Notes under the pieces: model-generated
Told to the model about the DNA's origin: nothing
Seen by the model: the letters and a program-made list of their open reading frames with translations, nothing else
Databases searched by the model: none
Made by a program: the position numbers and the translations under genes
DNA from: Bacteroidota bacterium
Lineage (GTDB): Bacteria; Bacteroidota; Bacteroidia; JACCXN01
DNA length: 64,000 nucleotides
Assembly (NCBI GenBank): GCA_013696965.1
Contig: JACCXN010000020.1
Location: forward strand, 62,001-126,000
Direction: 5' to 3'
Shown: positions 4,918-47,663 of the stretch, piece by piece
Layout: each line of letters begins with the position of its first letter
Numbering within the stretch: position 1 is the first letter of the stretch

Positions 4918-5661
4918 ATGGATCTTACGTTAAAGGTTTGGAGACAAAAAAACATCAAGGACAAAGGACATTTGGCTACCTATCAGTTAAAAGGCATATC
5001 ACCTGACATGTCTTTTCTTGAAATGTTTGATGTATTAAATGAAGAACTTATCAGTAAAGGAACAGAAGAGCCAATTGCTTTTGATCATGACTGTCGCGAG
5101 GGAATATGTGGTGCTTGTAGCATGTTCATCAATGGTAGGGCGCATGGGCCTAACAGGGGAACAACTACTTGCCAATTACATATGCGTTCATTTAATGATG
5201 GCGATACAATAGTTGTTGAACCATGGAGATCAGGTTCTTTTCCTGTACTTAAAGACCTTGTTGTTGATCGTTCCGCTTTTGACCGTATTATTGAATCTGG
5301 TGGTTTTATTTCTGTAAATACAGGAAATGCCAAGGATGCAAACAATATACTTGTTCCTAAACATGATGCAGATGCAGCTTTTGATTCTGCTACCTGTATT
5401 GGATGCGGTGCTTGCGTTGCAGCATGTAAAAACTCTTCAGCGGCTTTATTTGTAGGAGCTAAAATTTCTCAACTAGCACTATTGCCACAGGGGAAAATAG
5501 AAAGAGAAGAACGTGTAAAAAGCATGGTGGAACAAATGGATGCAGAAGGCTTTGGAAATTGCAGCAATACGGGTTCTTGTGAAGTGGAATGTCCTAAAGA
5601 AATTTCTATTGAAAACATAGCCAGGATGAACCGAGAACTTATTGGAGCTACATTTAAATAA
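4918..5661 (+). CDS. sdhB: Succinate dehydrogenase/fumarate reductase iron-sulfur subunit
   Basis: A 247-residue electron-transfer subunit with three clusters readable from its cysteines. The [2Fe-2S] site has C59, C64, C67 and C85 in an N-terminal plant-type ferredoxin fold. The [4Fe-4S] site is [11 protein letters not shown] (C160, C163, C166) and the [3Fe-4S] site uses C170, C215 and C221, with C225 completing the second motif. It carries electrons from FAD in SdhA to the quinone site of SdhC. Last gene of the operon; a strong terminator follows at 5702-5738. Confidence 0.95.
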
Positions 5662-5701
5662 AAGCCAATAATTAAATCATTTATTACAAATTAACTAATT
5701 A

Positions 5702-5738
5702 AAAAAACCGGAAAAAGTCTTACTCTTTCCGGTTTTTT
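5702..5738. terminator. Bidirectional rho-independent terminator after sdhB
   Basis: Arms 5702-5717 and 5723-5738 pair over 16 bp with one mismatch around a 5-nt loop. The core is CCGG, flanked by A-rich and T-rich arms, so both strands end in a U tract. It lies between the convergent sdhB and the T9SS cargo gene and can serve both. Confidence 0.85.
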
Positions 5739-5764
5739 AATTCCTGTTTTTTTTTGCAAAAAAA

Positions 5765-7600
5765 TTACCTGAATAAATTAACTGTTCCGTTTTTACTGTA
5801 ATCTGCTTTAGCGTTTTCAGCTTTTAAAATAAAGAAATAAGTACCCTCTGGAACTAATGCACCTGAAGAAGTTCTACCATCCCATCTGATTTCTGGCGCA
5901 GTTGTTTCCCAAATTTTAGTCCCCCAACGGTTGTAAATTTCTATACTAAAATTACCCATACCTGTATTTGGTATGTAAAACATATCATTGTTCCCATCGC
6001 CATTTGGAGAAAATACATTTGGAACAATTGCATCTTCATTAATATTGATTTCTAAGGACAATGTATCTGAGCAGGAATTCGGACTTTCAACAATTAACTG
6101 AGCAGTATAGGTTCCGGAATTCGAATAATAGTTACTAGGATTTTGAGCTGTTGAAGTTTTCCCATCCCCAAAATCCCAAAACCAGGAAGCTCCATTTAAA
6201 CTGTTGTCTTGAAAAGAAACATGTTGGGATAAAGGACCGGAAAAGGTAGTATTAAAATCAGCAACGGGATTAGAATCAAGTATCACAACATAGGAAGCAG
6301 AAGCTAATGATTCACAAAATCCACCAGAGGTCACCTCGGTAACTGTTATGCTTCCTGGAGAGGCTGTTCCCCATTCTATTGTAACTGTTTGTTGATTGGG
6401 CTTAGTTGTGATTGTACCACCAGTTACAGTCCAGGTATAAGTTGAAGTTGAACTTCCTGAGGCAGCGTAGTCCATTTGTGCATTTGAACAAATTAACTGA
6501 TCACCAGTTAAACTTGGAGCAGCAGGACGTGTTTCATGCAGAATAAAAGGCGTACTGGAATTACCAAAAGAATTAAACGCACTTTTTTTAATGGTTGCGA
6601 AATTTCCACTGGATCCAATATTTACCAATCCTAAAGAATTCCACATCGAACCATTAGGAGAATTCCATTGTGATGTATTGCTCCATTGCCCATCAGAGGC
6701 TATATTATAGAAAAAGGTTATATCAGCTGCAGTTGTACCTAATGTCCTATTGATTCTGTGATAAAATTCAGGATTGGTGGAGCATATTTGAGAGTCCACA
6801 GAATTTCTGTCATAGCCTTCTGTTCCTGCATCTACATTAGCCATTCGAACAGAATAATTATTTACATCCGAAGAAGCAGGAGTTATTACAATAGGCCTGT
6901 ACCTATATGTTCCAGCACTTGAACCTGTAGGGAAAAGATAAGGTTGATTTGTATTTGTGGTTCTTAACAGTGCGCCAAGTCCAGTACCATTGTTGTTGGA
7001 ACTTACAAACCCTTCAATTGAGGTTACACTTGAATTTGTTATGGCATTTACTGCAGGGTTTGTAACTGAAAGCAAATTGTCATCCGTTGCGAGTTCTCTG
7101 TCATTTAATACAAGTTGTCCTGAAACTGTTGCATTTATAGTTAGCCTTGCTCGAGTTCCTGTTGAACTTGTTAAAATAAGATTATTAAAAGTTGTTGGAA
7201 CGGCACCTGTAATCAATTGTTCAGAAGTAGTGCCATAAAGCTCAACCTGGCTACTTTCTGCGATAAAATTAGCATCATTAAACCAGTTTTGTTCAATTCT
7301 GCAAAGACCGTTTCCATTGGTTATAGAACCATTTAAAAGATAAATGCTTCCTTCTGTTCCGCTATTGGAAATATTTATATTTCCGTTGTTCCTTAAATCA
7401 CCTCCATCATTCGTAAGTCCACCATTCACCTGAACAACGGCCCCTTCCGCTGTATAAATTAATCCGCCATTACTGAATAATATTGCATCATTCGAAGTTT
7501 GGGCAACAACAGAACTCAATGCAAGGATAAAGGCTAAAAACAAAGAAAAAACACTGCTTTTTACTATTGAAAGAGTAGTTTTTGTAATCATATTTGTCAA
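5765..7600 (-). CDS. Secreted PKD-domain protein with type IX sorting domain
   Basis: A 611-residue exported protein. A signal peptide (about residues 1-33, ending SSVVAQ) is followed by a beta-rich region with Asn/Thr/Ser/Gly repeats. An Ig-like stretch and a PKD domain (WFWDFGDGKTSTAQNP, roughly 440-520) come next. The last 85 residues (527-611) form the gliding motility-associated C-terminal domain: it begins PNVFSPNGDGNNDMF, has IYNRWGTKIW and WDGRTSSG, and ends near the C-terminus with GTYFFILKA. This is a type B T9SS sorting signal, so the protein should cross the outer membrane by type IX secretion. Its function is unknown; it may be an adhesin or surface structural protein. The neighbouring gld genes fit this export route. 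Confidence 0.88.
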   Translation of the reverse strand: MTNMITKTTLSIVKSSVFSLFLAFILALSSVVAQTSNDAILFSNGGLIYTAEGAVVQVNGGLTNDGGDLRNNGNINISNSGTEGSIYLLNGSITNGNGLCRIEQNWFNDANFIAESSQVELYGTTSEQLITGAVPTTFNNLILTSSTGTRARLTINATVSGQLVLNDRELATDDNLLSVTNPAVNAITNSSVTSIEGFVSSNNNGTGLGALLRTTNTNQPYLFPTGSSAGTYRYRPIVITPASSDVNNYSVRMANVDAGTEGYDRNSVDSQICSTNPEFYHRINRTLGTTAADITFFYNIASDGQWSNTSQWNSPNGSMWNSLGLVNIGSSGNFATIKKSAFNSFGNSSTPFILHETRPAAPSLTGDQLICSNAQMDYAASGSSTSTYTWTVTGGTITTKPNQQTVTIEWGTASPGSITVTEVTSGGFCESLASASYVVILDSNPVADFNTTFSGPLSQHVSFQDNSLNGASWFWDFGDGKTSTAQNPSNYYSNSGTYTAQLIVESPNSCSDTLSLEININEDAIVPNVFSPNGDGNNDMFYIPNTGMGNFSIEIYNRWGTKIWETTAPEIRWDGRTSSGALVPEGTYFFILKAENAKADYSKNGTVNLFR

Positions 7601-7760: not shown

Positions 7761-8099
7761 TTACTTTTCATCATAAAGATTAAGTCTTTCGGCAAAATAT
7801 TCACAAAAATCACGCATATCTCCAGCCATTTTCTCCTCGCCGGTTGCTCTTTCAAGTGTTTGTGCCATTGAAACCAAAGTTTGATGGAAAAATAATTTCA
7901 TTTCATCAGCCATCATATCTTTGGTCCAAAGATCTATACGAAGTGAATTTTGTTCTTTAGGATCCCAAATAGACACCATTACTGCTTTACATGCTTTAAG
8001 GCCTACACTTTCAGGAGAATCGGTTGCTTCCCACTGGATTTTTTCCGGAATATTGTTTTCATCAAGATTTACAATGAAATTAATTTCTGAACTTTTCAT
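7761..8099 (-). CDS. gldC: Gliding motility protein GldC
   Basis: A 112-residue soluble protein recognised as GldC by its length, its sequence (for example ENNIPEKIQWEATDSPE and the helical C-terminus with DFCEYFAERLNLYDEK) and its place beside gldB. GldC is needed for efficient gliding in flavobacteria; its biochemical role is unknown. No signal peptide or membrane helix, so probably cytoplasmic. It follows gldB on the same strand after a 121 bp spacer made of a dispersed repeat shared with the purT upstream region. Confidence 0.9.
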   Translation of the reverse strand: MKSSEINFIVNLDENNIPEKIQWEATDSPESVGLKACKAVMVSIWDPKEQNSLRIDLWTKDMMADEMKLFFHQTLVSMAQTLERATGEEKMAGDMRDFCEYFAERLNLYDEK

Positions 8100-8220
8100 A
8101 TGTATATAATTTGTTTTTTAACTGTCATCCCGATTTATCGGGTCGCCATGCTATAATTGTAAGTGTTTGTCCATGGATATTTCACAGGATAAATATAACT
8201 GAAGTTTTTCAAACTAGGTT
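8100..8220. repeat. Dispersed intergenic repeat, copy 1 (gldB-gldC spacer)
   Basis: The whole spacer is similar to 17689-17817 upstream of purT. Both begin at the start codon with ATGTA-ATAATTTGTTTTTTAA, then TGTCATCCC, a TCGG element, and further on TGTTTGT-CATGG and an A/T-rich tail. This copy contains the hairpin CCCGATTTATCGGG. The two flanking genes are unrelated, so the similarity is not due to gene duplication. Confidence 0.75.
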
Positions 8221-27786: not shown

Positions 27787-28479
27787 ATGAACAAAACAGT
27801 AAAGGACGCAGAAGCTGCTATTGCAGGAATAAAAGACAATATGACTTTAATGCTGGGTGGATTTGGATTATGTGGAATTCCAGAAAACTGCATTTCAGCA
27901 CTTGTTAAAAAAGGAATAATGGGATTAACCTGCATATCCAATAATGCCGGAGTTGATGATTTTGGATTAGGATTACTGCTACACAACAAACAAATAAAAA
28001 AAATGATTGCCTCTTATGTAGGAGAAAATGCGGAATTTGAAAGACAATTGCTAAGTGGGGAATTGGAAGTTGACCTGGTACCACAGGGAACCCTTGCAAC
28101 ACGTTGCATGGCCTCAGGATATGGAATACCTGCAGTATTTACACCTGCCGGAGTTGGTACTGAAATAGCCCAGGGAAAAGAAGTAAGAAACTTTAATGGA
28201 AAAGATTACTTACTTGAATTTGCTTTTGACGCTGATTTTGCAATCGTAAAGGCATGGAAGGGTGATACTCAGGGCAATCTAGTGTTCCGCGCAACTGCCA
28301 GAAACTTCAATCCACTTATGGCAATGGCTGGAAAAATAACCATTGCAGAAGTAGAAGAACTTGTCCCAGTAGGCCAACTGGACCCTGATTCCATACATAC
28401 TCCAGGCATTTTTGTTCATAGGATATTTCAGGGAAGTAACTATGAAAAAAGAATTGAGCAAAGAACCCTTAGAAGTTAA
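27787..28479 (+). CDS. scoA: 3-oxoacid CoA-transferase subunit A
   Basis: A 230-residue family I CoA-transferase alpha subunit, which with subunit B moves CoA between succinyl-CoA and 3-oxoacids such as acetoacetate. The glycine-rich CoA site is seen in MTLMLGGFGLCGIPENCI, with FTPAGVGTEIAQGKE and GKDYLLEFAFDADFAIVKAWK typical of this subunit. The end (YEKRIEQRTLRS) is complete. The partner scoB normally follows within a few bases, often overlapping; here it lies 10,150 bp downstream with glycosyltransferase genes between. Only 12 bp separate scoA from the PBP1A stop. Confidence 0.94.
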   Translation: MNKTVKDAEAAIAGIKDNMTLMLGGFGLCGIPENCISALVKKGIMGLTCISNNAGVDDFGLGLLLHNKQIKKMIASYVGENAEFERQLLSGELEVDLVPQGTLATRCMASGYGIPAVFTPAGVGTEIAQGKEVRNFNGKDYLLEFAFDADFAIVKAWKGDTQGNLVFRATARNFNPLMAMAGKITIAEVEELVPVGQLDPDSIHTPGIFVHRIFQGSNYEKRIEQRTLRS

Positions 28480-28610: not shown

Positions 28611-30467
28611 ATGAATAAGCTCTCCGCTGGTGTTACCCTGGTATTATCCATAATCCTTGTAACCCTGATTGGACTTAACCCATACCCTAACACTATTTCC
28701 TGGGATGTTTTTGGGTATTACCTGTATTTACCTGCTGTGTTTATTTATCAGGATTTGGGTTTAAAGAATATTGAGGTAATTGAAAACATAATTCAAACTT
28801 ATAGCAGCACTTCTACTTTTTACCAGGCAACAAGATTGCCGGAAGGAGTATGGGTTTTTAAATACTCCATGGGCATGGCTGTTTTATATGCCCCGTTTTT
28901 TTTTATTAGTCATTTTTTAGCTTTATTTCTAGACTATGCTGCTGATGGATTCTCTCCTCCCTATCAATGGGGACTAATTGCCGGTAGCTTTTTTTACACT
29001 TTAGCTGGCCTTTACTTTTTACGAAAAGTTCTATTGAAATTTTTTAATGATCAAATTACTGCTATTGCACTTATTTTAATTGTTGTTGGCACCAATTACT
29101 TTCATATTGTGATTTACAGCAGTTTAATGCCACATAACTTCCTTTTCACTTTATACACTCTTGTTTTATGGTTTACCTTAAAATGGCATGAAACATTTAA
29201 AATTAAATATATTGTTTTGTGCGGAATAGTTTGCGGACTATGTATCCTGAGCAGGCCTTCAGAAATAGTTTGTCTTTTGATTCCTGCACTTTGGACAATA
29301 AACAATAAGGAAAGTTTTATTGAAAAAATACGGTTGTTACTAGAAAAAAAAGTTCAAATACTCTTGTTTTTATTGGTTGTATTTACAACCTGTTTGCCTC
29401 AACTTATTTATTATAAAATGATCACGGGCAAATTTTTGTATTCAAGTTATGGAAATTATGGCGAAGGAATGGAGTTTTTGAAGCCATATACCTTAGAAGT
29501 TCTATTTAGTTTCAGGAAGGGATGGTTTATTTATACTCCAATTATGCTATTTGCCATTATTGGACTATTTATGATGCTTAAAAACAAATGGAAACACAGC
29601 TTTGCTATAGTCCTGTTTACAATCGTTAATGTGTATATTGTTTCTAGCTGGTCATGCTGGTGGTATGCCGATAGTTTTGGCCAAAGAGCATTAATGCAAT
29701 CCTTTGCGGTACTTGCCTTGCCTTTGGGCTATTTTATCCTGTGGTTGAAAAGCAAGCAAATTTATCTAAAGGTTTTATCTTCTATTGCTTTTGGTTTTTT
29801 CATTTTATTGAACTTGTTTCAAACCTGGCAAATCAATAATTATATTATTCATTCCTCCAGGATGACTTTTTCCTATTATCTCAAAGTGTTTGGAAAAACA
29901 ACAGTTCAGGAAGAGGACAAAAAACTATTATTGGTGAATAGATTTTTTATTGGAGATGAAACGGTGCAAAACGAAGATGAATTTGCCAAAACTACGCTTG
30001 GTTTTATTGATTTTGAAAAGAATAAAACATATGAACTGAGTTATGAAAAACACCGGAAATATGTATTATCCAAAAAACAGTATTTTTCAGGAAATACCTC
30101 ATTAAAGTTAGATAGCAACAATATTTTTTCTCCAAAATATGAAATAACCTACAAGGATCTCACAGACAAAGAATATGCATGGATAAGAGTTTCTGCAATG
30201 ATTTATCCCACAGCAGATTTAAAAAACGATCCGGCAAGTATTGTAATTACTTTTAAGCATAAATGGAACAATTATAAATATGCTGCATTAAATTTTGAAA
30301 ATCTACCCCATTTAGAATTAAACAAATGGAACAAAGTAAGTTTTGATTACCTTACACCTGAGGTAAGGAAAAAAAGTGACAACTTAAGTGTTTATGCATG
30401 GAATAGAGGGAAGAAAAACATATACATTGATGACCTGAAAATTGATGTTTTTGAACCAAAAAATTAA
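28611..30467 (+). CDS. Polytopic GT-C-like membrane protein with C-terminal beta domain
   Basis: A 618-residue protein with about 10-11 predicted membrane helices (residues 1-420) and a soluble C-terminal region (about 460-618). The membrane part begins with an acidic first-loop motif (NPYPNTISWDVFGYYLYLP), as in GT-C glycosyltransferases, and has SFRKGWFIYTPIMLF before the last helices. The C-terminal part is beta-rich (NKWNKVSFDYLTPEVRK, VYAWNRGKKNIYIDDLKI) and resembles a carbohydrate-binding sandwich. It is a paralog of the protein at 42338-43780, and its C-terminal domain recurs in the protein at 36171-38177. Probably transfers a sugar from a polyprenyl phosphate donor; substrate unknown. 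Confidence 0.7.
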   Translation: MNKLSAGVTLVLSIILVTLIGLNPYPNTISWDVFGYYLYLPAVFIYQDLGLKNIEVIENIIQTYSSTSTFYQATRLPEGVWVFKYSMGMAVLYAPFFFISHFLALFLDYAADGFSPPYQWGLIAGSFFYTLAGLYFLRKVLLKFFNDQITAIALILIVVGTNYFHIVIYSSLMPHNFLFTLYTLVLWFTLKWHETFKIKYIVLCGIVCGLCILSRPSEIVCLLIPALWTINNKESFIEKIRLLLEKKVQILLFLLVVFTTCLPQLIYYKMITGKFLYSSYGNYGEGMEFLKPYTLEVLFSFRKGWFIYTPIMLFAIIGLFMMLKNKWKHSFAIVLFTIVNVYIVSSWSCWWYADSFGQRALMQSFAVLALPLGYFILWLKSKQIYLKVLSSIAFGFFILLNLFQTWQINNYIIHSSRMTFSYYLKVFGKTTVQEEDKKLLLVNRFFIGDETVQNEDEFAKTTLGFIDFEKNKTYELSYEKHRKYVLSKKQYFSGNTSLKLDSNNIFSPKYEITYKDLTDKEYAWIRVSAMIYPTADLKNDPASIVITFKHKWNNYKYAALNFENLPHLELNKWNKVSFDYLTPEVRKKSDNLSVYAWNRGKKNIYIDDLKIDVFEPKN

Positions 30468-30607: not shown

Positions 30608-30636
30608 TACATTTGTCAGCTTAAAATATATATTTG
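30608..30636 (+). promoter_or_regulatory. Two candidate -7 boxes before the GT2 gene
   Basis: TACATTTG at 30608-30615 and TATATTTG at 30629-30636 both match TAnnTTTG, and either would start transcription shortly before the ATG at 30655. No good -33 partner is seen. The preceding 140 bp (30468-30607) hold no gene. Confidence 0.35.
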
Positions 30637-30654
30637 CATAGTAAATTATTAAAA

Positions 30655-31389
30655 ATGTTCTATTATAAAAAATGGGCCATCGTTGTTCCTTTGGCTAATG
30701 AGGAAGCAGATTTTAAACCATTCATTGAAATGGTGAATTTGGTGATAAATGAATTGAACCCAGGAAATGTTTATTTCATAGTTGATAAAGCTTCAAAAGA
30801 CAGGACTCTTGAGCTGTGCCAGGAACTGTCAGCCAGGGATCCAAAATATGTTACTGTATGGGCGCCTGAGAACAAGAATGTTGTAGATGCTTATGTTAAA
30901 GGATTGCGTGTTGCATACGAAGCAGGTCATGAAATAATTATTGAAATGGATGCAGGATTATCCCACGATCCGAGAGCAATTCCAATGTTTTTGCGTGTAT
31001 TGAATGAAGGAAATGAATGTGCATTCGGAAGCAGGTTTATAAATGGAGGTTCTATGGGGGATTCGCCATTTAAACGTAGATTTCTTTCAAAAACGGGAAC
31101 CTTTCTTGCCAATTTTTTACTTGGAACTTCATTAAGGGACATGACCTCAGGATACCAGGGATTCCATAGGGATGTGGTGGCTAAAATAATAGATCATAAG
31201 TTTAGATCAAAAGCTCATTTTTACCAAACCGAATTGCGTTATTTGTTGCGAAATAGAAGAATTTTCGAAGTTCCAATACATTACCAGGCACCTTCACCGC
31301 GTGTTTCAAAAAATGCAATAAAAAATGCCTATCAGTCCTTGTTTTATTATTTCTTTCAACGATTAACTGGAAATAAACCAACACTATAA
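30655..31389 (+). CDS. Glycosyltransferase family 2, DPM1/polyprenyl-phosphate type
   Basis: A 244-residue GT-A enzyme. The nucleotide-sugar fold starts AIVVPLANEEADFKPFIEM, with YFIVDKASKDRTLELC and the metal-site region IIEMDAGLSHDPRAIPMFL. RFINGGSMGDSPFKRRFLS and DMTSGYQGFHRDVV fit dolichol-phosphate mannosyltransferase-like enzymes, which load a sugar onto a polyprenyl phosphate. No membrane helix at the C-terminus, so peripheral. It could supply lipid-linked sugar to the neighbouring GT-C proteins (inference). Start taken at the ATG at 30655; a TTG at 30634 is also in frame. Confidence 0.85.
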   Translation: MFYYKKWAIVVPLANEEADFKPFIEMVNLVINELNPGNVYFIVDKASKDRTLELCQELSARDPKYVTVWAPENKNVVDAYVKGLRVAYEAGHEIIIEMDAGLSHDPRAIPMFLRVLNEGNECAFGSRFINGGSMGDSPFKRRFLSKTGTFLANFLLGTSLRDMTSGYQGFHRDVVAKIIDHKFRSKAHFYQTELRYLLRNRRIFEVPIHYQAPSPRVSKNAIKNAYQSLFYYFFQRLTGNKPTL

Positions 31390-31440: not shown

Positions 31441-32448
31441 ATGTCAAAAACACTTATCATTACCTCAATTGCAAACGATCAAAATGCAATATTAAAACAA
31501 TTTGCAAAGGAATGCAAAGAACAAAACACGCCATTCATTGTAATTGGTGACACAAAATCACCGGAAAATTTCCAATTAGAGGGTTGTGATTACTGGAATG
31601 TTGAGCGTCAATTGGGCTTGCCTTTTGAACTGGCAAAAATCACCCCCACCCGCCATTATTCAAGAAAAAATTTGGGATATCTTATTGCCATAAAAAACGG
31701 GGCAACGGAACTGGTAGAAACAGATGATGACAATATTCCGCGTAAAGAATTTTGGGAACCAAAATCTCGTGAAGTAAAGAGCCATCAGTTTGAAAACAAG
31801 GGCTGGGTAAATGTATACCATTACTTTAGCAAGCAGATGATTTGGCCAAGAGGCTTTCCTTTGGAGGAGTTACAAAAAAAACAAATTGCACTTTCAGACC
31901 TGGAAAACAAAAGTACCCTGTGCCCTATTCAACAAGGCCTTGCTGATGAGAATCCGGATGTTGATGCAGTTTACAGACTTACTTACCCCCTGCCATTTAA
32001 TTTTGAATTAAAAGAACGCTTAGCATTAGGCAAAAACGCATGGAGCCCCTTTAACAGTCAGAATACCTATTGGTTTAAAGAAGCTTTTGCATTGATGTAT
32101 TTACCCTCGTATTGCAGCTTTAGGATGACCGACATCTGGCGCAGTTATGTTGCACAGCGTATAGCATGGGAATGCGGCTGGAGCATACTATATCACGAAC
32201 CTACAGTTTGGCAGGAGCGCAACGAACACAATTTGATGAAAGATTTTGAAGATGAAATTCCAGGATACACCAACAACTTTAATATTTGCAAAGAATTACA
32301 AGCACTTGATTTAAAGCCAGGCCAGGAAAACATCTACCCTAATTTAATAGCCTGTTATCAAAAACTAATTGATATGGGTGTGATTGGAAAAGATGAGATG
32401 ATATTGTTAAAAGCATGGATAAGCGACTTGAAAATAGTATTAAATTAG
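31441..32448 (+). CDS. STELLO/DUF288-like glycosyltransferase
   Basis: A 335-residue cytosolic protein matching the STELLO (DUF288) family: QLGLPFELAKITPTRHYSRK, then NLGYLIAIKNGATELVETDD with a triple-Asp DDDN metal site. WKNGWVNVYHYF-like elements follow (here NKGWVNVYHYFSKQMIWPRG). In plants STELLO proteins act in the Golgi on cellulose synthase assembly; the bacterial members are of unknown substrate. The gene starts 51 bp after the GT2 gene, and its stop is one base from the next gene's ATG, so the three form an operon. Confidence 0.75.
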   Translation: MSKTLIITSIANDQNAILKQFAKECKEQNTPFIVIGDTKSPENFQLEGCDYWNVERQLGLPFELAKITPTRHYSRKNLGYLIAIKNGATELVETDDDNIPRKEFWEPKSREVKSHQFENKGWVNVYHYFSKQMIWPRGFPLEELQKKQIALSDLENKSTLCPIQQGLADENPDVDAVYRLTYPLPFNFELKERLALGKNAWSPFNSQNTYWFKEAFALMYLPSYCSFRMTDIWRSYVAQRIAWECGWSILYHEPTVWQERNEHNLMKDFEDEIPGYTNNFNICKELQALDLKPGQENIYPNLIACYQKLIDMGVIGKDEMILLKAWISDLKIVLN

Positions 32449-32449
32449 A

Positions 32450-34138
32450 ATGATTCAATCCAAAATTAAAATCTATTCTGCTTTCGTTTTATTGATTATT
32501 CTTGTTTCTTACCCGCTTTTCTTAAACTTAGACAAACTAAGTGTAAGAATGTGGGATGAGGCTAGAAATGGAATTAATGCAATTGAAATGTTAGGAAATG
32601 GAAAGCTATTTGTAACCCATTTCGATGATCAGCCTGATATGTGGAACACAAAGCCTCCATTTATGATTTGGATGATTGCACTTTCCATGAAATTTTTTGG
32701 TGTAACTACATTTGCATTAAGATTCCCCTCTGTTCTGGCAGCTCTAACAATTGTTATATATGGTTTTTGGTTTGCAAGAAAATATATTCAATCAACAAAC
32801 CTTGGTTTTATATTTGGATTAGTTTTATGCACATCAATTGGATTCATTGATCATCATGCATCAAGAAATGGAGATTTCGACACAATGCTTGCAATGTGGA
32901 TATTCCTATATGTTACACAGTTTTTTCTGTTTTTAGAAAACAGAAAACAAATAAATTTAATACTTTTCTCCATTTTTTTTGGTCTGGCTTTACTTACCAA
33001 AGGAATTGCAGCATGCATGATTTTACCAGGCCTGGCAATTTATTTTTTTATCGATAAAAAGAATCTCACATTATTAAAGTCAGCAAATTTTTATGTATTC
33101 TCTTTTTTGGGCCTGCTAATTGGGCTCTCCTATTACATTATTCGGGAACAAATGAACCCTGGCTTTATTGAGATGGTAATTTTTAATGAAATAACAGGCA
33201 GATATGCTGAAACAAACGAAGGTCATTCGGGATCAATTTGGTTTTACTATGAATTATTAAGGGACTACCACTATAAGTTTTGGATATATTTTATTCCATT
33301 GGCACTAGTCCTGATCTTTTTAAGGGCAGATAAAAAATTAAAAAAAATAACAGCATTTATTTTTCTTCAGGCTATAGTATATTTTGCAGTAATTACTTTT
33401 TCAGATACAAAACTAGATTGGTACGACCTCCCATTATTTCCATTGTTTGCCCTAATAATAGCCGCTGGCTTTACTCAATTACAAATACAAATATCAGGTT
33501 TAAGTGTGTTGAAAAAATCTATTTTTAAACAATTTGTTTATCTATCAATAACGTCACTAATTTTTATTATTCCTCTGAAAAATATTTTTGCCACATCCAT
33601 TCAGTTTGAAAAAGAAACCTATTATCCTGAGACGTTTTATGGCGATTTTATAAATGAAATACATGCATTATTTCCCAATCAAAAAAATTTAAAGGTAACT
33701 TCCGAAGGTTACAATCCGCATCTAATCTTTTATATAAAAGAGAAAGAAATGCATCATTTGAATATTGAAATTGTTCAACCAACCAACCATGATTTTGTAC
33801 AAAATGACACAATTATGGTAACGGAAATGAAATTTTTTCCAACATTGAAGGAAGATTTGGTTTTAGATACTTTAATTATTGCTGAAGGTCCGAAATTATT
33901 GCTTCGGGTAATTTCCTATGATGAATACTTCAAAAACAAATATGTAAAACTATTTCTAAAAAAAGTTTCAGAAATTAATTCCGACAAGCAGTGGAACCAA
34001 GCAACAAAGCAAAAGGCTCTAAATAATAATGTAACCATAGAAAAACAAGTTATGCTGGAAGCATTGTGGTGTTTAACTAATGCTAAAGAAATTAGCCCTG
34101 AAGAACAAGATTCCATCAAAGTTAAATACAATTTTTAA
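32450..34138 (+). CDS. GT39/ArnT-type membrane glycosyltransferase
   Basis: A 562-residue polytopic protein with about 10-11 helices. The first periplasmic loop carries the WDEARNG motif (Asp-Glu as in PMT and ArnT enzymes), followed by WNTKPPFMIWMIALSMKFFG and HHASRNGDFDTML. LALLTKGIAACMILPGLAIYF is also typical. It should transfer a sugar from a lipid-phosphate donor to an acceptor outside the inner membrane. The soluble C-terminus (about 400-562) ends with a 40-residue motif shared with two other cluster proteins (WNQATKQKALNNNVTIEKQV). Translationally close to the upstream gene (1 bp gap). Convergent with the next gene. Confidence 0.85.
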   Translation: MIQSKIKIYSAFVLLIILVSYPLFLNLDKLSVRMWDEARNGINAIEMLGNGKLFVTHFDDQPDMWNTKPPFMIWMIALSMKFFGVTTFALRFPSVLAALTIVIYGFWFARKYIQSTNLGFIFGLVLCTSIGFIDHHASRNGDFDTMLAMWIFLYVTQFFLFLENRKQINLILFSIFFGLALLTKGIAACMILPGLAIYFFIDKKNLTLLKSANFYVFSFLGLLIGLSYYIIREQMNPGFIEMVIFNEITGRYAETNEGHSGSIWFYYELLRDYHYKFWIYFIPLALVLIFLRADKKLKKITAFIFLQAIVYFAVITFSDTKLDWYDLPLFPLFALIIAAGFTQLQIQISGLSVLKKSIFKQFVYLSITSLIFIIPLKNIFATSIQFEKETYYPETFYGDFINEIHALFPNQKNLKVTSEGYNPHLIFYIKEKEMHHLNIEIVQPTNHDFVQNDTIMVTEMKFFPTLKEDLVLDTLIIAEGPKLLLRVISYDEYFKNKYVKLFLKKVSEINSDKQWNQATKQKALNNNVTIEKQVMLEALWCLTNAKEISPEEQDSIKVKYNF

Positions 34139-34198
34139 AACTCTACTTTTTGAATTGCAACTTTAAAAGTAAAAATAGAAACTATTTTAAAACAGATA

Positions 34199-36106
34199 CT
34201 ATTTTTTCAGCTCTTCTTCTATAATCCATTTTGCGTCATAATATAAGGCTGTATCCAAACTTGTATTACTTTCTCTGGCTTTTAATTTAATCATTTCAAG
34301 CCATTCTGGGTTAGCTTTTATCTGAACGATTTTAATATTTATTTTTTCTTCTTTAGTGGTTCCTATTTGAATTACTGGATCAATTTTTAAAACATATCTT
34401 GCATCACCAATCAAAGCCTGCTCCTCGGAAACACCCTCCTTTTCAGCTCGTTCAATCACTGAATTATACCAATTGGGAGTGGCTTTTATTATTTCAATCA
34501 TATTTTGTGTTTTTCTTACATTATCAATTTCTATTAGCAATGCTTTAGGTAGAAATTTTGATGAAATATTGTCAACATTTAAATAAGCCCAATTATTAAT
34601 AAAATTAGTATTTTCATTTATTGAATCAATTTGAGCTTTATTCAAGCCTATTATTTCCAAATTATCTGTATGTTGTTTGTGTATAAGTATTTTGGTAATA
34701 GTACCATCTGTTTTCATGAAATAAGCAGGAGTACTTGAATAATCATAGGCTGCATTAGGAAAATACCTATTTAAGAATATTACTGGGTCCGGGTTGTAAA
34801 ATTTGGGATAATTTTCCAACACCCATACTGAAATGGGTTTTGGCACATTTGTGGACCAGTCATAATCACTTAAATTGTTGTGATAAATTACTGTTGCTAT
34901 TTGGGTTATAAGCGCAAAAGAAGCAATACTGATTTTTAACCTCAGGTTTTTAATTTCGTACAGCAAAAACGCAAAATGAACCAAAATCATTCCACTAAAG
35001 TAGGTAACATAACGATTTACAACAGACTGGCCATGATTCCAATTATCAATTGTTGCTGCAATGCAAACAGAAAATACAGTAAAAACCACTATTATTATTT
35101 CTAAAATATATTCCGGAGGTTTAGTTGTGAGAAATTTCCGAATAAGAAGGAAAATATATAAAAACAAAACAAGTGGAATTGCCAATATTGCGCCTTGATT
35201 AATATCAAAAAACAAACCCAAAACACGATTAACAGTTACATAGTCAAAACTTAAAGCCCCCTGATATTTAATAAGGTTTGTTTCACCAAAATGGTAGTAG
35301 TAGAACAAAGATGGACCAAGCACTATTATTGTGCTTAAGCCCAACTTTACTAGATTTTTAATATTAATTGGTGCTTTAATTAATGTATATACCGCTAAAC
35401 CAGCAATCAAAATAGCCATTGGCTGATTTTGCAATGCAGCAATAGACATTAAAAACAAACCCCAATAACGCCTTTCGGATAGGAATAAAAACAAACCCAA
35501 TGAAGAAAAACAAACTGTAAATACTTCTGGGTGTTGCCAGGATAAATACCAATAGTTTGTTGAAAAATAAAACATGAATACAAAGAGAGTTGTATATAGC
35601 TTATTAAATCCACTATATCTGAAGAATAAAAAACTACAAATAACAATCAACATTAAATTAGTGAGCTGATGGATAATTAATGGATTAAAATCCAATACAG
35701 CACAAAGAATACGGGAAGGCACATTAATTAAAGAGTATGCAAAGAAATGACAACTAAATTTTTTACCCTTTTCACTTACAAAAAAAGCATAATCGTAATC
35801 CAGAGGTTGATGATTCTTTTCTGAAACAAACTGCTGAGCTGCATCATAAGTTATTGCTTTTTCATTATTGGACCAGTCGGCAATTTTAGTGTATGCTTTT
35901 TTAAAGGTTTCAAAATCACCCTCTCTTACATCAGGTGAAAAATGATTGTAAAAAGCCTCTGTCATTATTGTATATTCAATTACATCCCCCGTAGGATAAA
36001 TTTTATCTTCACTTACTAGTCGAAAAACCCCAAGAATAAAAATAACAATTACAACAAGGGAGGAAATACTAATTAAATTGCTTTTTATATTTTTTATAAA
36101 TTCCAT
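34199..36106 (-). CDS. Polytopic membrane protein, putative GT-C glycosyltransferase
   Basis: A 635-residue protein with about 10-12 helices and a soluble C-terminus. After the first helix an acidic loop (YPTGDVIEYTIMTEAFYNHF) and a later HQPLDYDYAFF segment are compatible with a GT-C fold, but no family could be assigned firmly. The C-terminal 105 residues contain two copies of a W...A...DA motif: NWYNSVIERAEKEGVSEEQA at about 545-564 and EWLEMIKLKARESNTSLDTA at about 601-620. The same motif occurs in the proteins at 32450 and 39363. It is downstream of the 36171-38177 gene on the minus strand (64 bp apart). Confidence 0.7.
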   Translation of the reverse strand: MEFIKNIKSNLISISSLVVIVIFILGVFRLVSEDKIYPTGDVIEYTIMTEAFYNHFSPDVREGDFETFKKAYTKIADWSNNEKAITYDAAQQFVSEKNHQPLDYDYAFFVSEKGKKFSCHFFAYSLINVPSRILCAVLDFNPLIIHQLTNLMLIVICSFLFFRYSGFNKLYTTLFVFMFYFSTNYWYLSWQHPEVFTVCFSSLGLFLFLSERRYWGLFLMSIAALQNQPMAILIAGLAVYTLIKAPINIKNLVKLGLSTIIVLGPSLFYYYHFGETNLIKYQGALSFDYVTVNRVLGLFFDINQGAILAIPLVLFLYIFLLIRKFLTTKPPEYILEIIIVVFTVFSVCIAATIDNWNHGQSVVNRYVTYFSGMILVHFAFLLYEIKNLRLKISIASFALITQIATVIYHNNLSDYDWSTNVPKPISVWVLENYPKFYNPDPVIFLNRYFPNAAYDYSSTPAYFMKTDGTITKILIHKQHTDNLEIIGLNKAQIDSINENTNFINNWAYLNVDNISSKFLPKALLIEIDNVRKTQNMIEIIKATPNWYNSVIERAEKEGVSEEQALIGDARYVLKIDPVIQIGTTKEEKINIKIVQIKANPEWLEMIKLKARESNTSLDTALYYDAKWIIEEELKK

Positions 36107-36170: not shown

Positions 36171-38177
36171 CTAAAACTCACCTTTTTGTATAACAACTTT
36201 AAAATTTTCAATGTAAAAATTCTCTTTAGCACGGTTCCAAACATATATTTTTAATTCCGCATCATCAGAAATACCGCTAGGCAAGTTTGCTATTAAAGAA
36301 ATATTATTCCAGTTATTTGGCACCTTCATTTTTTCCAGAACAATTAAATCAGCTCTGAACAAGGATTCCCCATCTTTTTCAACTGAAATAACCATATGTC
36401 CGATTGATTTTTTTTCATTATAAACTAAAGCGTTTATTGAAATGGCTGTTTTTCCATTCAATTCACTTATTTTTTTTACTATTCCCGGGCTAAACTGATT
36501 TTGTTCATTAATTAAATAAGATGCCCTTCCAGTATCAGTGAATATAATTGAAGGGTTATCTATATTACAACCTGCATTCATAAAGGAAGAATGAAAAACA
36601 AGACAAGAATCACCCTTAACATTCTTGCCAATAAAGCTTTTTACCAAATCACAGGGATTGTCTGAGACATCTGCAATAATTTCAATTGGATTACAAGCTA
36701 ACTCATTTTTTACAAATACAGTGTAGCCTGTACTGATTCTCTTGTAATAGCTGCATTCTTTAAATCCTTTACTTACAATAAATTCTTCTATTTTATGGTC
36801 AGGATCCTGAAATTGCGAATGAGAATGAACATAAATAACTTTATTTATAGTATCGTAATTTAAATTTTCCCATCCATACAAAGGACACTTCTCACAATAG
36901 TAAACATTGTTTTTTGCCAACATTTCAGCCGATTTTGAATAATTCCTAAAGGATTCGTAATCGTAATAAAAAGCAAAATCCATGTATTTATAAGTGGCGG
37001 AAATAAAAATAACCGTATTCTTATCCTGCTTACTTTTTACAACCGGAACCATTCTTTTCCAATCATCTTCGCGTTCCTGCGTAATTTCAAAAGAAGTGAG
37101 TATCAATAAAGCAAAAGGGATAATAAATAAGAACTTATAAAGAAATTTCATTTTTAGATTTGAAAAAAAGTAAGCAATGCACAAAAACAAACCAATGGTG
37201 GTATACAAAATATACCTTGCATGGAATACCGGGGTTTTCTGAGAAACAATAAAATCCAGAACTATGGGCAGGATATACAGTGTTACAAAAACAAAGTAGT
37301 GTTTGCGATTAAACTCCATGCTAAGAACCTTCAGCTGATTGTTGAAAACAACAATCAAAAATGAAAGCGAAACAAATGCACTAAAAACATAAAACAAAGT
37401 TTCACTTCCCGAAAGAACATTTGTATGGTATCTAAATGCATCAAAATTTGGAGCTATGTTCCAAAAAGAGCCTTCTTTGGGAACATTGGATAAGAGTATA
37501 GAAACCCAGGGCAAAAAAGAAATTACAAGGAATATTTGACTAACAAAATAATAAACAAAAGCTTTTCTGTTTTCTTTAAAATATCCCCAAATAAAAACAA
37601 ACTGAACAACAAGAATAAAAACAGAAAGGTAATGCGTAAAGAGTAAAGACAAATTAATTAACCACAAAAAAATAACATCGCTCTTTTTGGGCTTAGTAAG
37701 CAAATTGAAATAAATATAAAATGAAGAAATGCACAACAATTGAATAAGGGCATAAGGCCTTACCTCTGTAGAGAAATAGTGCTGGGAATTGGAAAACAAA
37801 AACAAGAAAAAAGCAATTACTGCTGTTTGAATGTTCAAAAACTTTTTGGCAAATAAAAATAAAATAAGGCCTGCAAAAACACTACATGCAACAGATAACA
37901 TTTTAGAAGCTATTTCTGTTACTCCGAAAATTTCCATCCAAAAATGCAACAAAGCAATGTGCATGGGTGGGTTTTGATCATTTAAAAATATTACTTTTAG
38001 TTCAGATAGCGATTTTTGACCATGAAACACACTATACATCTCATCGCCATATAAGCTCTCCAGAGAAAGGCCATATGTACGAATAAACAGTGATAGTAAA
38101 AACAAAAAAAACAACAGTAAAAAGAATATTAATTTACTATTTAATCCTTGTTTTTTATTTGTTGGAATTTCACCCAT
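36171..38177 (-). CDS. GT39-type membrane glycosyltransferase with C-terminal beta domain
   Basis: A 668-residue polytopic protein starting at the ATG at 38177 (MGEIPTNKKQG); the frame is open to a GTG at 38204. The first loop RTYGLSLESLYGDEMYSVFH contains the Asp-Glu pair of GT39 enzymes, with NDQNPPMHIALLHFWMEIFG following, a common pattern. About 11 helices fill residues 1-390. The C-terminal soluble part ends with a beta domain (NNWNNISLIANLPSG, IYVWNRAKENFYIENFKVV) homologous to that of the protein at 28611. It may glycosylate a lipid or surface polymer; the substrate is unknown. Confidence 0.82.
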   Translation of the reverse strand: MGEIPTNKKQGLNSKLIFFLLLFFLFLLSLFIRTYGLSLESLYGDEMYSVFHGQKSLSELKVIFLNDQNPPMHIALLHFWMEIFGVTEIASKMLSVACSVFAGLILFLFAKKFLNIQTAVIAFFLFLFSNSQHYFSTEVRPYALIQLLCISSFYIYFNLLTKPKKSDVIFLWLINLSLLFTHYLSVFILVVQFVFIWGYFKENRKAFVYYFVSQIFLVISFLPWVSILLSNVPKEGSFWNIAPNFDAFRYHTNVLSGSETLFYVFSAFVSLSFLIVVFNNQLKVLSMEFNRKHYFVFVTLYILPIVLDFIVSQKTPVFHARYILYTTIGLFLCIAYFFSNLKMKFLYKFLFIIPFALLILTSFEITQEREDDWKRMVPVVKSKQDKNTVIFISATYKYMDFAFYYDYESFRNYSKSAEMLAKNNVYYCEKCPLYGWENLNYDTINKVIYVHSHSQFQDPDHKIEEFIVSKGFKECSYYKRISTGYTVFVKNELACNPIEIIADVSDNPCDLVKSFIGKNVKGDSCLVFHSSFMNAGCNIDNPSIIFTDTGRASYLINEQNQFSPGIVKKISELNGKTAISINALVYNEKKSIGHMVISVEKDGESLFRADLIVLEKMKVPNNWNNISLIANLPSGISDDAELKIYVWNRAKENFYIENFKVVIQKGEF

Positions 38178-38293
38178 TGTTGACAAATATTCTCGTGGAA
38201 TCACCCTTATGGGTATTTCTTAATGGTCTGCAATACTCTATATTATCACAAACATAGTATTATTTTTTTTGTTTACACAGGAAACAAATATTC

Positions 38294-38624
38294 ATGAATT
38301 ACAATTCACAATTACTTAACTGGAATTTGAGGATAAGCAGGGGACTAATAACTATCTTATTTTTCAAGGAATTAGCTGTTCATACATTTATACTACAATT
38401 TGAATTTTTGCAGTTATTAATGAAAATTAGGCTTAAAATAAAGAAACAGGCAACAAAGAGTTTTGAAAATTCAATGAATTTAGAGTTAAATAAATGTAAT
38501 AAAGTTAGTTTTGACTACCTTTCCGCTGAATTCAGATAAAACTGCCTAAAAAAATAAAACCGGTAAAAATCAGAATATTTTCATCCCTGATTATAAAATT
38601 GATATTTTTGAACCACAAAATTAA
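38294..38624 (+). pseudogene. Decayed 3' fragment of a GT-C-like gene before scoB
   Basis: The stretch 38467-38624 is homologous to 30300-30467, the 3' end of the membrane protein gene at 28611. One frame encodes LELNKCNKVSFDYLSAEFR, matching LELNKWNKVSFDYLTPEVR. After a stop and a frameshift, a second frame gives [18 protein letters not shown], matching the parent C-terminus KNIYIDDLKIDVFEPKN, with a stop at the same place (38622-38624). The part before 38467 is open but I cannot align it. The scoB ATG lies 5 bp after the remnant. It appears to be what remains of a second copy of that gene. Confidence 0.7.
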
Positions 38625-38629
38625 TTAAA

Positions 38630-39289
38630 ATGCCTTTAGATAAGAACGGAATTGCCAAACGCATTGCCCAGGAAGTAAAAGACGGTTTCTATGTAAATTT
38701 AGGAATTGGAATACCTACCTTGGTAGCAAATTATATCCCTGAAGGAGTTGATGTTATACTTCAATCAGAAAATGGCTTATTGGGAATGGGCCCTTTTCCT
38801 TTTGCAGGAGAAGAAGATCCTGATTTGATAAATGCCGGAAAACAAACCATTACAACAATTCCTGGATCTGCTTTTTTTGATTCAGCCATGAGTTTTGGAA
38901 TGATTCGCGCAGGGAAAGTTGACCTTACCATTCTTGGAGCAATGGAGGTGAGTGAAACAGGAGATATTGCCAATTGGAAAATACCGGGAAAAATGGTAAA
39001 AGGTATGGGAGGTGCAATGGATTTAGTAGCTTCGGCCAAAAACATTATTGTTGCCATGCAACATATTAATAAGGCCGGGGAATCAAAATTACTTCCAAGT
39101 TGTTCCCTTCCACTTACGGGAGTTAAGTGTGTAAAAAAAATTGTCACAGAATTGGCTGTAATTGATGTTACTCCCCAAGGTTTTAAACTTATTGAAAGGG
39201 CGCCAGGAGTATCTGTGGAAGAAATAGTAAAAGCCACAGCTGGAAAATTAATCGTTGAAGGAGAAATTCCGGAAATGAAAATTTTTTAA
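38630..39289 (+). CDS. scoB: 3-oxoacid CoA-transferase subunit B
   Basis: A 219-residue beta subunit of the CoA-transferase whose alpha subunit is at 27787-28479. [15 protein letters not shown] precedes the catalytic Glu47 in [10 protein letters not shown], which forms the glutamyl-CoA intermediate. [20 protein letters not shown] and [20 protein letters not shown] are conserved features. The sequence appears intact and full length. It is separated from scoA by 10 kb and directly follows the decayed fragment, so its transcription must start within or upstream of that fragment; I see no clear promoter. Confidence 0.94.
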
Positions 39290-39362: not shown

Positions 39363-41351
39363 ATGATCAAATTAATTCGTTTTAGTGCCCTATTTATTCT
39401 AATCGCACTTTTTGCCTCATGTAGTAATAGTCCTGAAATTTTAAATGTAAAATACAATTTAGGTGAACTTTCAAATGGAGTTATTCAAGCCGATTTATCG
39501 GGGGTAGTTACCAATGGGATAGAAATTCCAACAGAAAGGCAAACCGCTTCTGGCAATTTCGACATTTCATTTGAGGTAAAAGGAAGCAAAGGCCAGAATT
39601 ATTTTTACAAGATTTATTACCAGAACGAAAGTTACAAATTCCCTGAAATTGCTGATACTGCCCAAAATTACAATGCATTTGCAGATGAAAATTTCTATGG
39701 CTCTTGGAATGATCCATCTATAGGATTTAAAAAAGTGCCTGCAATTGATTTTACTATTAATGAATCCATAAAAATTATTGGCAATCCAAGAGACGAAAAA
39801 AAATATTATGGAATTCCATTCCAAAAAACGTATTACAGTGAGGAAGATATTCAAGCCGTAGGCAAAAACATAAGGGAAACACAAGACTGGTTTGCCGCCA
39901 TAGTTTCAAAAGCAGAAAAAAATAAATTAAGTATCGAAGAACAATTGCTTTTTGATGCTAAGTGGGTTTTGAAAAATGAAACCAGGGGAGAGCATGAAAA
40001 CAACCGGTGGAAAAGAAATCCAAGAATGGGCACTTACAGCCTTATGGTAGTAGTTACTACAGAGGAGGAACTAGCCAAGATCCCTAAACACATCCAATTT
40101 ATAAATGAACTTTCAGATAGCGGAATTTTCGTTTCTCCTTATTACTTTTTCAAATACAAAATAAACCCTGATTCTTTTCCTGATACAAAAGTATTTATTG
40201 ATAGCTCCTTTGTAAGGGTACAAGCTTCCATGGATGTTGCTGGGGGAATATGTGCCAATCCACTTGAATATCCCTCTTCAGAAAAAATGCCCGATGAAAA
40301 AGCGTGTGGTTGGAATAAGGATTTATTTAACAATGCACATTTCGGCCAGTTTTTTTCCTCCCTGAATAAAAACTTCCACTTAAATACAATACCTCTTATT
40401 CAAGACGTAAATGATTCCAGTTATACAAAGGATGAATATGATTCAGCAATAAAAAAATATTCAGAAAAACAATTTAAAAAAGATTACATAAGAAGTACTG
40501 AAAATCCGTGTAAATATGTAAGGTATAATGAAAATAAAAAAGCTATTGAGATTGTGAATCCCGGAAATGACAAGCTTGCAGATGCACACAAAGTTAATAT
40601 GGGGATTAAAACAAGAATAGGATTCACTTACGGAAAAATAACTGCTAAAATTAAATTCCCTGAACTGATAAATAAACATAACGTTTGGAATGGATTAACA
40701 AATGCCTTTTGGTTAATATACCAGGATGAACAGGAATGGAATAATCGCAGGGTTTGTAAAACAGGCTATTCCAAAAAGGGAGAAACCATAAATGATGCTC
40801 CAAGGATTTCTCAGACAAATTATTCAGAAATAGATTTCGAAATAGTAAAAACAAGCCCTAAATGGCCAATAGGTTATTACAAGGGGAGAATAAATGAAAA
40901 GGATGAATCGCAAAGTGATGATATTATTGTTGGATGCACTAACTGGGATTTAACCTGTAAGGATTGCAAAACATATACATGGGGAATTGATACGGTTGAA
41001 TATGAAAATAAAACTTTTGAAACAATGCGATGGGACAGTCATTATCAAGCCCTTACTACCCGAACTGCAGCAAAAGACAATGACTTATTCAAAAGCCCAT
41101 ATTACTACTACCAATTTGAATGGACTCCCAACCATATTATTTGGAGAATAGGACCGGAAAAGGATAAACTATCCGTTGTTGGATATATGAACAGTGATAT
41201 AACATCTATTCCCAACAATCAAATGATTGCTGTAATTACCCAGGAATACCACTTATCGGAGTGGTGGCCTCCTATAACCTTTAAGCAAGAATTCATTCCA
41301 TTTCCAAAAAATGATATAATAGGGGAAGTATATGAATTAACGATTGAATAA
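39363..41351 (+). CDS. Lipoprotein with GH16-like C-terminal domain
   Basis: A 662-residue lipoprotein. Signal and lipobox end in FASC (C20). The N-terminal part (about 25-140) is beta-rich. A helical W...KA...DAKW motif follows at about 166-206, shared with two neighbouring membrane proteins. The C-terminal part (about 385-662) looks like a concanavalin-A-type glucanase: GKITAKIKFPE, NAFWLIYQDEQEWNN, then SEIDFEIV, where E489-I-D491-F-E493 fits the GH16 catalytic pattern ExDxE, then YQFEWTPNHIIWRIG, the usual GH16 strand. So it may cleave or transfer a beta-glucan-like chain at the cell surface. Family assignment is by motif only. Confidence 0.65.
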   Translation: MIKLIRFSALFILIALFASCSNSPEILNVKYNLGELSNGVIQADLSGVVTNGIEIPTERQTASGNFDISFEVKGSKGQNYFYKIYYQNESYKFPEIADTAQNYNAFADENFYGSWNDPSIGFKKVPAIDFTINESIKIIGNPRDEKKYYGIPFQKTYYSEEDIQAVGKNIRETQDWFAAIVSKAEKNKLSIEEQLLFDAKWVLKNETRGEHENNRWKRNPRMGTYSLMVVVTTEEELAKIPKHIQFINELSDSGIFVSPYYFFKYKINPDSFPDTKVFIDSSFVRVQASMDVAGGICANPLEYPSSEKMPDEKACGWNKDLFNNAHFGQFFSSLNKNFHLNTIPLIQDVNDSSYTKDEYDSAIKKYSEKQFKKDYIRSTENPCKYVRYNENKKAIEIVNPGNDKLADAHKVNMGIKTRIGFTYGKITAKIKFPELINKHNVWNGLTNAFWLIYQDEQEWNNRRVCKTGYSKKGETINDAPRISQTNYSEIDFEIVKTSPKWPIGYYKGRINEKDESQSDDIIVGCTNWDLTCKDCKTYTWGIDTVEYENKTFETMRWDSHYQALTTRTAAKDNDLFKSPYYYYQFEWTPNHIIWRIGPEKDKLSVVGYMNSDITSIPNNQMIAVITQEYHLSEWWPPITFKQEFIPFPKNDIIGEVYELTIE

Positions 41352-41391: not shown

Positions 41392-42120
41392 GTGAACAAA
41401 GTCAAGAAACTTTCCATAATAATTCCAGCTTACAATGAGGCTGCTACAATTCATTTAATCCTCAATAAGGTATCAAAAGTTGAACTTGTGGATAACATGG
41501 AAAAGGAAATTATTATTGTAAATGATTGTTCCTCTGATAATACAGCTGAAGTTATAGAAAAATACATGCTTAACAATTCAGGTACTACCATTAGCTTGCA
41601 TAACCAGCCCTACAATCAGGGGAAAGGAGCTGCATTGCACAAAGGTATCAAACTTGCCTCTGGTGATTATGTAATTATCCAGGATGCCGATTTGGAATAT
41701 GATCCTGAAGAATACAATGTGTTGTTAAAACCCCTTATAAACGATGTGGCTGATGTTGTATACGGATCAAGATTTATTGGAGGAAAGCCGCACCGCATTC
41801 TTTTTTTCTGGCATACATTAGGGAATAAATTTTTAACTGCGCTTTCCAATATGTTCACCAATTTGAATTTAACGGATATGGAAACCTGTTACAAGGTATT
41901 TAGATCGGATATTATAAAAAACATTGATTTTAAGGAAAAGCGATTTGGTTTTGAACCGGAAGTTACAGCAAAAATTGCCAGAGTACCTAAGGTGCGCATT
42001 TATGAAATAGGAATTTCTTATTATGGCAGAACATACGAAGAAGGAAAAAAAATTGGATGGAAAGATGGTGTAAGAGCAATTTACTGCATTATGAAATACA
42101 ATATTTGGAATCGAAAATAA
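41392..42120 (+). CDS. Glycosyltransferase family 2, polyprenyl-phosphate type
   Basis: A 242-residue GT-A enzyme. [34 protein letters not shown] and the metal-site strand [20 protein letters not shown] are clear. [20 protein letters not shown] and [14 protein letters not shown] are typical of enzymes that pass a hexose to polyprenyl phosphate. No C-terminal membrane helices, so peripheral. The start codon is GTG at 41392; an in-frame stop six codons upstream excludes a longer form. It follows the GH16-like lipoprotein by 40 bp. Confidence 0.88.
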
Positions 42121-42196: not shown

Positions 42197-42341
42197 ATGC
42201 ATAAAATTTACAGGAAAAAAGATAAAGACATTAAAAAAAGTATCCTTTGACAACACAATTTCCATATCTGAGTATAATTATTCCTATAAATCAGGAACAG
42301 GTGTTATTGTTAAAAACAACAGGTATTATTTTAAGAAATGA
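42197..42341 (+). pseudogene. Possible small frameshifted reading frame
   Basis: From the ATG at 42197 one frame reads MHKIYRKKDKDIKK and then stops soon after an A7 run (42233-42239). In the frame used past that run the sequence continues VSFDNTISISEYNYSYKSG and GVIVKNNRYYFKK to a TGA at 42339-42341. That stop overlaps the ATG of the next gene as ATGA, the usual sign of coupled genes. I cannot name the product. It could be the tail of a decayed gene. Confidence 0.35.
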
Positions 42342-47402: not shown

Positions 47403-47663
47403 GATTAAATAAAAAAAGCCGGCTTAATTATAAGAGTCCACTGAAAAAGTCTATTAAGAAATTGTTAACTAAAAAAGGAGTAGAAAGATAAGTTTTTCTA
47501 CTCCTTTTTTTTAGTTAAAGACTTCCACTAAAAAATTAAGCAAATAAAAAGCATTATAAAAAAAGCAATAGCTAAAGATTGCTTTAAACTTAATCGCTTT
47601 TTAAAAATTAATCAAAGAATGAGATGCTTTTTCAGCAAATCCGGCTTTTTTGTTTAATATTAA
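47403..47663. mobile_element. MITE-like segment, possibly inserted in a terminator
   Basis: AAAAAAGCCGG (around 47412-47422) and CCGGCTTTTTT (47641-47651) are perfect 11-nt inverse complements about 220 bp apart, with further similarity outside them. Inside them, CTGAAAAAG (47441-47449) and its complement CTTTTTCAG (about 47627-47635) face each other as short terminal inverted repeats. One reading is that the outer arms were a terminator stem of the bacilliredoxin gene and that an element of about 200 bp entered its loop. GAGTCCACTGAAAAAGTC at the left end resembles ends of some IS elements (recalled, not checked). No transposase frame. Confidence 0.4.
47465..47517. terminator. Strong hairpin inside the MITE-like segment
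   Basis: TTAACT-A6-GGAGTAGAAA pairs with TTTCTACTCC-T8-AGTTAA over about 22 bp with a 2-nt bulge. The T run inside the 3' arm could act as a terminator on either strand. Confidence 0.65.

Follow-up and report, generated by a model that had tools for sequence, protein, structure and literature searches.

A decayed 3′ end of a GT-C-like gene directly upstream of scoB, at a scoA-scoB junction often broken in Bacteroidia

Overview of the locus

In a 64,000-nucleotide stretch of DNA from a Bacteroidota bacterium (hereafter the window), the region directly upstream of scoB holds the final 63 codons and the stop of GTC1 in decayed form; GTC1 itself, a GT-C-like gene, is intact on the scoA side of the same locus (Table 1). 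This relic is real and ordinary, and a preliminary description of the region, made from the letters alone, had the scene right in outline. The reading that we favor, at a probability of roughly 60%, is that the relic is the decayed 3′ end of a GTC1 paralogue that once lay upstream of scoB, possibly kept as the promoter and leader of scoB.

Table 1. Features of the scoA-scoB locus, in window coordinates
Feature	Position	Strand	Evidence
scoA, 3-oxoacid CoA-transferase subunit A	27787..28479	+	TIGR02429, 264 bits, cut-off 128.5
GTC1, intact gene for a GT-C-like membrane protein of 618 aa that ends in a CBM-like beta-sandwich domain	28611..30467	+	ORF, Pfam, structure model
Block gene, family 2 glycosyltransferase	30634..31389	+	PF00535
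Block gene, STELLO-type glycosyltransferase	31441..32448	+	PF03385
Block gene GTC2, PMT_2 glycosyltransferase	32450..34138	+	PF13231
Possible second 3′-end relic, resembling the GTC4 3′ end	34136..34181	-	76% over 46 nt
Block gene GTC3, membrane protein unmatched in Pfam	34199..36106	-	ORF
Block gene GTC4, PMT_2 glycosyltransferase ending in a domain of the GTC1 kind, read away from scoB	36171..38204	-	
Relic, decayed copy of the GTC1 3′ end (63 codons and stop)	38444..38624	+	blastn, DNA alignment, frameshift-tolerant alignment, broken frame
TATTTTTG within the relic, putative -7 box of the scoB promoter (predicted role)	38603..38610	+	fits TAnnTTTG and TAHHTTTG
scoB, 3-oxoacid CoA-transferase subunit B	38630..39289	+	TIGR02428, 325 bits, cut-off 243.6

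Homology of the relic to GTC1

When 38004-38900 was compared with GTC1 by blastn, two matches were obtained, one with 54 of 69 identical nucleotides (E 1e-11) and the other, at the very 3′ end of GTC1, with 28 of 30 (E 2e-8); they are collinear and on the same strand. The local DNA alignment of relic and GTC1 scored 76, against a maximum of 39 across 500 dinucleotide shuffles, and a frameshift-tolerant alignment of the GTC1 protein to the DNA scored 129, against a shuffled mean of 33.6 (60 shuffles, sd 5.1, maximum 46). The aligned span pairs GTC1 residues 556-618 with 38444-38621 and is followed by a TAA stop at 38622-38624. Convergence or mere chance might produce some likeness in DNA this rich in A+T (38205-38629 has only 25.6% G+C), yet two kinds of alignment lie far above their shuffles, are collinear and reach the same stop, making such an origin extremely improbable; chance similarity to GTC1 is ruled out by the shuffles.

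The preliminary description had placed the remnant in 38294-38624 and had likened 38467-38624 to the final ~165 bp of GTC1. The likeness is borne out, and the narrower interval was nearly right; of the wider one only 38444-38624 belongs to the copy, GTC1 similarity not being detected in the remaining 38294-38443. Likewise, GTC1 residues 401-560 had no detectable similarity to 38204-38455 (score 30; shuffled mean 29.8). With nothing GTC1-like upstream of 38444, the ORF start at 38294 lies outside the copy. The remnant does abut scoB, as described: its stop and the scoB ATG at 38630 are 5 nt apart.

Among 1071 ORFs from the window and from the loci fetched by then, the relic has 53% amino acid identity to GTC1 and 30% to the next-best relatives, and no other family matches it better. 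A search of the genome itself (106 contigs) with GTC1 matched only GTC1, a related gene at 42338, the relic and the C-terminal end of GTC4. As judged from these alignments, the relic is a true copy of the GTC1 lineage, by homology and by closest kinship. No similar relic rose above shuffles upstream of nine other separated scoB genes. Within the locus, we compared eight intergenic stretches with twelve gene ends (a ninth stretch was too short and was left out), and only the relic and the possible relic at 34136 exceeded shuffles. The latter, on the minus strand, stands directly after GTC3 and in frame with the GTC4 stop, and its local score against the GTC4 3′ end is 44 (maximum 35 in 500 shuffles), a possible sign of repeated shuffling of gene ends at this locus.

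GTC1 and its C-terminal domain

GTC1 begins 131 nt past the scoA stop, in keeping with the earlier report of an intact gene just after scoA. Its match to PMT_2 (PF13231) reaches 23.9 bits, under the Pfam gathering cut-off of 26.1, and we therefore name it GT-C-like only. The structure model of the C-terminal domain (mean pLDDT 94) is a beta sandwich, and its best PDB matches are CBM22 and CBM16, at a TM of about 0.5 and an identity of about 15-16%. The same domain terminates other GT-C genes and also occurs as stand-alone ORFs of 214-250 aa in four fetched loci (L154, L159, L170, L182).

The existence of such ORFs, together with a gap (38205-38624) of about one domain in size, would fit a relic derived from a stand-alone C-terminal-domain gene and not from a full-length GT-C gene. 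We consider this origin quite improbable, since nothing upstream of 38444 is GTC1-like, the first half of the domain included, and since the relic matched full-length GTC1 and its orthologues best, in a search that preceded the fetching of the four loci.

A motif of ~37 residues recurs in the neighborhood. It is present near the C-terminus once in GTC2 and twice in GTC3, and one internal copy is found in the protein at 39363-41351. A four-segment profile of the motif found many other ORFs near GTC1 relatives, mostly of about 430-590 aa and mostly with the motif at the C-terminal end. Further downstream, 47461-47520 is a long, near-perfect palindrome flanked by runs of A and T that looks like a two-way terminator.

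Decay of the relic

The alignment of the relic to GTC1 contains two frame breaks and three single-residue gaps, and the ORF at 38294-38539 crosses into the relic and ends at a stop at 38537-38539, so the frameshift and stop noticed earlier are both present. Two residues invariant in 27 C-terminal domains, W573 and D607 (W113 and D147 of alignment A2), are altered in the relic, to C and P, respectively. By these marks, namely the frame breaks, the stop and the lost invariant residues, the relic is dead as a gene. In the ungapped 69-nt block, it differs from GTC1 at 15 bases, eight of them in third position, and 6 of the 11 changed codons are synonymous (synonymy was read off the listing, and the sample is small). 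This partly synonymous divergence suggests that both copies were coding for a time before the relic decayed, and a difference at 15/69 nucleotides is too much for a fresh repeat.

The scoA-scoB junction in other genomes

We searched 60 genomes, including that of the window, of which 46 have both scoA and scoB; one with weak matches only (G036) was not counted. The two genes lie at most 160 nt apart in 24 of the 46, are separated by at least 440 nt in 15 (the window's genome among them) and are unlinked in seven. The junction is thus broken in 22/46 genomes, again counting the window's, mostly by genes in which no likeness to GTC1 was detected. Of two genomes from the same family as the window's, G001 has unlinked sco genes, and G002 has a scoA-scoB spacing of 41 nt within the conserved order pbp-scoA-scoB-GT2. 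Compared with this empty site, the 10-kb block, which G002 lacks, is an insertion; as the preliminary description had it, the two GTC1 copies flank it, one next to scoA and the other next to scoB.

An assembly error that put the block between scoA and scoB might be suspected in a genome of 106 contigs. It is very improbable here, given that gene order to either side is the conserved one (pbp-scoA before the block; scoB, GT2 and GT-C after it) and that, on a 152-kb contig, the relic reaches to within 5 nt of scoB.

One family of GT-C genes is found between scoA and scoB in six genomes (G005, G006, G010, G047, G052 and G054, at loci L067, L082, L085, L068, L074 and L086, respectively), co-directional in five and on the opposite strand in G005, with two genes in G047. 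In four further genomes, from four families, the junction holds a gene for a 23S rRNA intervening-sequence (IVS) protein (PF05635; L192 in G017, L198 in G048, L199 in G016, L202 in G022). Other junction genes are ORFs resembling a thiolase (G041) and, on the other strand, an ABC transporter (G023), both named by eye, a beta-lactamase-family gene (G059) and a 101-aa ORF (G038). Since the junction is often broken where there is no GTC1 repeat, such a repeat is not needed for insertion.

Inverted repeats surround many of the IVS genes: of 23 genes found, nine were left out as the ORF filter gave no frame, and 10 of the 14 tested scored above every one of 100 shuffles, three of the four junction copies among them. 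The junction copies are 56-66% alike, and one or two other copies are equally close. At another locus (L072, in G007), a full scoB-like gene at 5381-6028 is accompanied by a second fragment at 8042-8179 that corresponds to the end of scoB (residues 170-215).

A scan of the genome contigs with the GTC1 sequence alone gave no match; with an alignment as the query, 78 loci with GTC1 relatives were found and fetched from named genomes. Of these loci, 43 also match the GT2 protein at 41392-42120 (weakly in some), and five hold both sco genes. A GTC1-type gene lies directly after scoB in L116 (the contig of G017), L172 and L183, and further downstream of scoB in L110 and L123. On the evidence of these loci, GTC1-type genes belong to the sco neighborhood. 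None of the five loci holding both sco genes has a GTC1 relative between them, and a GTC1-type gene immediately upstream of scoB is without precedent in the sampled loci.

How the arrangement may have arisen

We infer the following order of events. Immediately before scoB, and read in the same direction, there would have been a GTC1 paralogue that ended 5 nt short of the scoB start. The 10-kb glycosyltransferase block would have been assembled by duplication and rearrangement between scoA and scoB; the two GTC1 copies may have come from tandem duplication or from a cross-over with incoming DNA, either being possible. The copy on the scoA side would have been retained, while that on the scoB side would have lost its front and middle and gained frame breaks and stops, and rearrangement would have set the opposite-strand genes GTC4 and GTC3 ahead of the surviving tail. 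From then on, the tail would have been kept as promoter and leader of scoB and not as a gene.

The preliminary description had seen in the two copies a sign that duplication or homologous recombination between repeats created or reshaped the insertion. Their position at the edges stands; the mechanism, though possible, is not supported, as the copies are diverged, no sco fragments were found and insertions elsewhere are mostly free of such repeats. We looked for a piece of scoB after GTC1, a piece of scoA before the relic and sequence common to both junctions, and no alignment stood out (best score 33, unshuffled).

A more specific form of recombination would have an incoming GTC1-like gene cross over inside a resident GTC1, leaving a hybrid at the scoA side and the displaced resident 3′ end at the scoB side. 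This would account for a relic that is a 3′ end only, in the same orientation and at the far edge of the block, and a resident target is plausible given how frequent GTC1 relatives are near this locus in the class. We nevertheless judge it unlikely: none of the fetched relatives has GTC1 between scoA and scoB, and junction insertions elsewhere do without any such repeat.

A candidate scoB promoter inside the relic

GTC3 and GTC4, being read on the opposite strand, would cut scoB off from the scoA transcript, and scoB would be expected to have a promoter of its own in 38205-38629. The primary sigma promoter of Bacteroidetes, as given in PMC6847099 and PMC9723704, has a -7 box of the form TAnnTTTG or TAHHTTTG. 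The relic contains a fitting box, TATTTTTG, 27 bp before the scoB ATG, which is the likeliest candidate for the -7 box of scoB and would give a leader of about 15 nt. At the same site GTC1 reads TGTTTTTG, and the relic and several GTC1 relatives alike have Ile at the box residue.

In the window, TAnnTTTG is found at a density of 2.10 per kb per strand between genes versus 0.50 inside them; two plus-strand boxes, as in the AT-rich 38205-38629, are not a rare outcome there, being reached in 5.8% of shuffles. We then counted boxes within 100 bp of scoB in all 45 genomes with both sco genes, the window's excluded, setting scoB starts by the nearest ATG (none fitted in G005, where the start is approximate). 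A box is present at four of nine separated scoB genes (at 22, 27, 33 and 47 bp), at two of the 12 whose inserts are co-directional (79 bp in each case) and at two of 24 adjacent ones (at 53 and 64 bp). At this 100-bp limit, separated and adjacent genes differ with p 0.034. At 50 bp or less, the counts are 4/9 for separated genes versus 0/36 for all others (Fisher p 0.0008), with the 50-bp cut chosen post hoc. Under the stricter TAHHTTTG, which has no G at the two middle places, G001 is lost and 3/9 separated genes remain. A -33 box (TTTG or TTG) is absent, there being no TTG 16-31 nt upstream of TATTTTTG, and predicted RNA folding of 38534-38629 is nothing special (z -0.87).

We tentatively propose from these counts that the relic may have been kept as the scoB promoter, a separated scoB repeatedly gaining a -7 box just upstream of its start, here inside a dead glycosyltransferase end; we hold this with less than even confidence. 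A literature search on IVS genes, gene insertion in operons, scoA-scoB order and pseudogene-derived promoters returned nothing directly on point.

Comparison with known systems

The relic is a scar left by gene shuffling where two genes, whose products together form one enzyme, have been parted repeatedly in the class. If the promoter reading is true, it would be a small case of a severed operon gene regaining a promoter from leftover coding sequence.

In being partial, with frame breaks, a stop, lost invariant residues and an intact copy 8 kb off, the relic resembles the pseudogene remnant of a local duplicate; unlike such a remnant, it is the immediate 5′ neighbor of an operon gene that has been cut off, and it contains a candidate promoter box. 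The candidate box itself is like that of the Bacteroidetes primary sigma promoter in standing 27 bp before the ATG with an implied leader of about 15 nt, and differs from the promoter as described in those two sources in having no clear -33 box, although in F. johnsoniae, where the -7 box is TAHHTTTG, the -33 box is weak too (PMC6847099, PMC9723704). Finally, PMC4481853 outlines gene-block events, among them insertion, splitting and internal duplication. The scoA-scoB pair, interrupted or split in many Bacteroidia genomes, is in line with these events as outlined there; the present case departs from that outline in the 10-kb extent of its split, in its two opposite-strand genes and in the relic left at the scoB edge.
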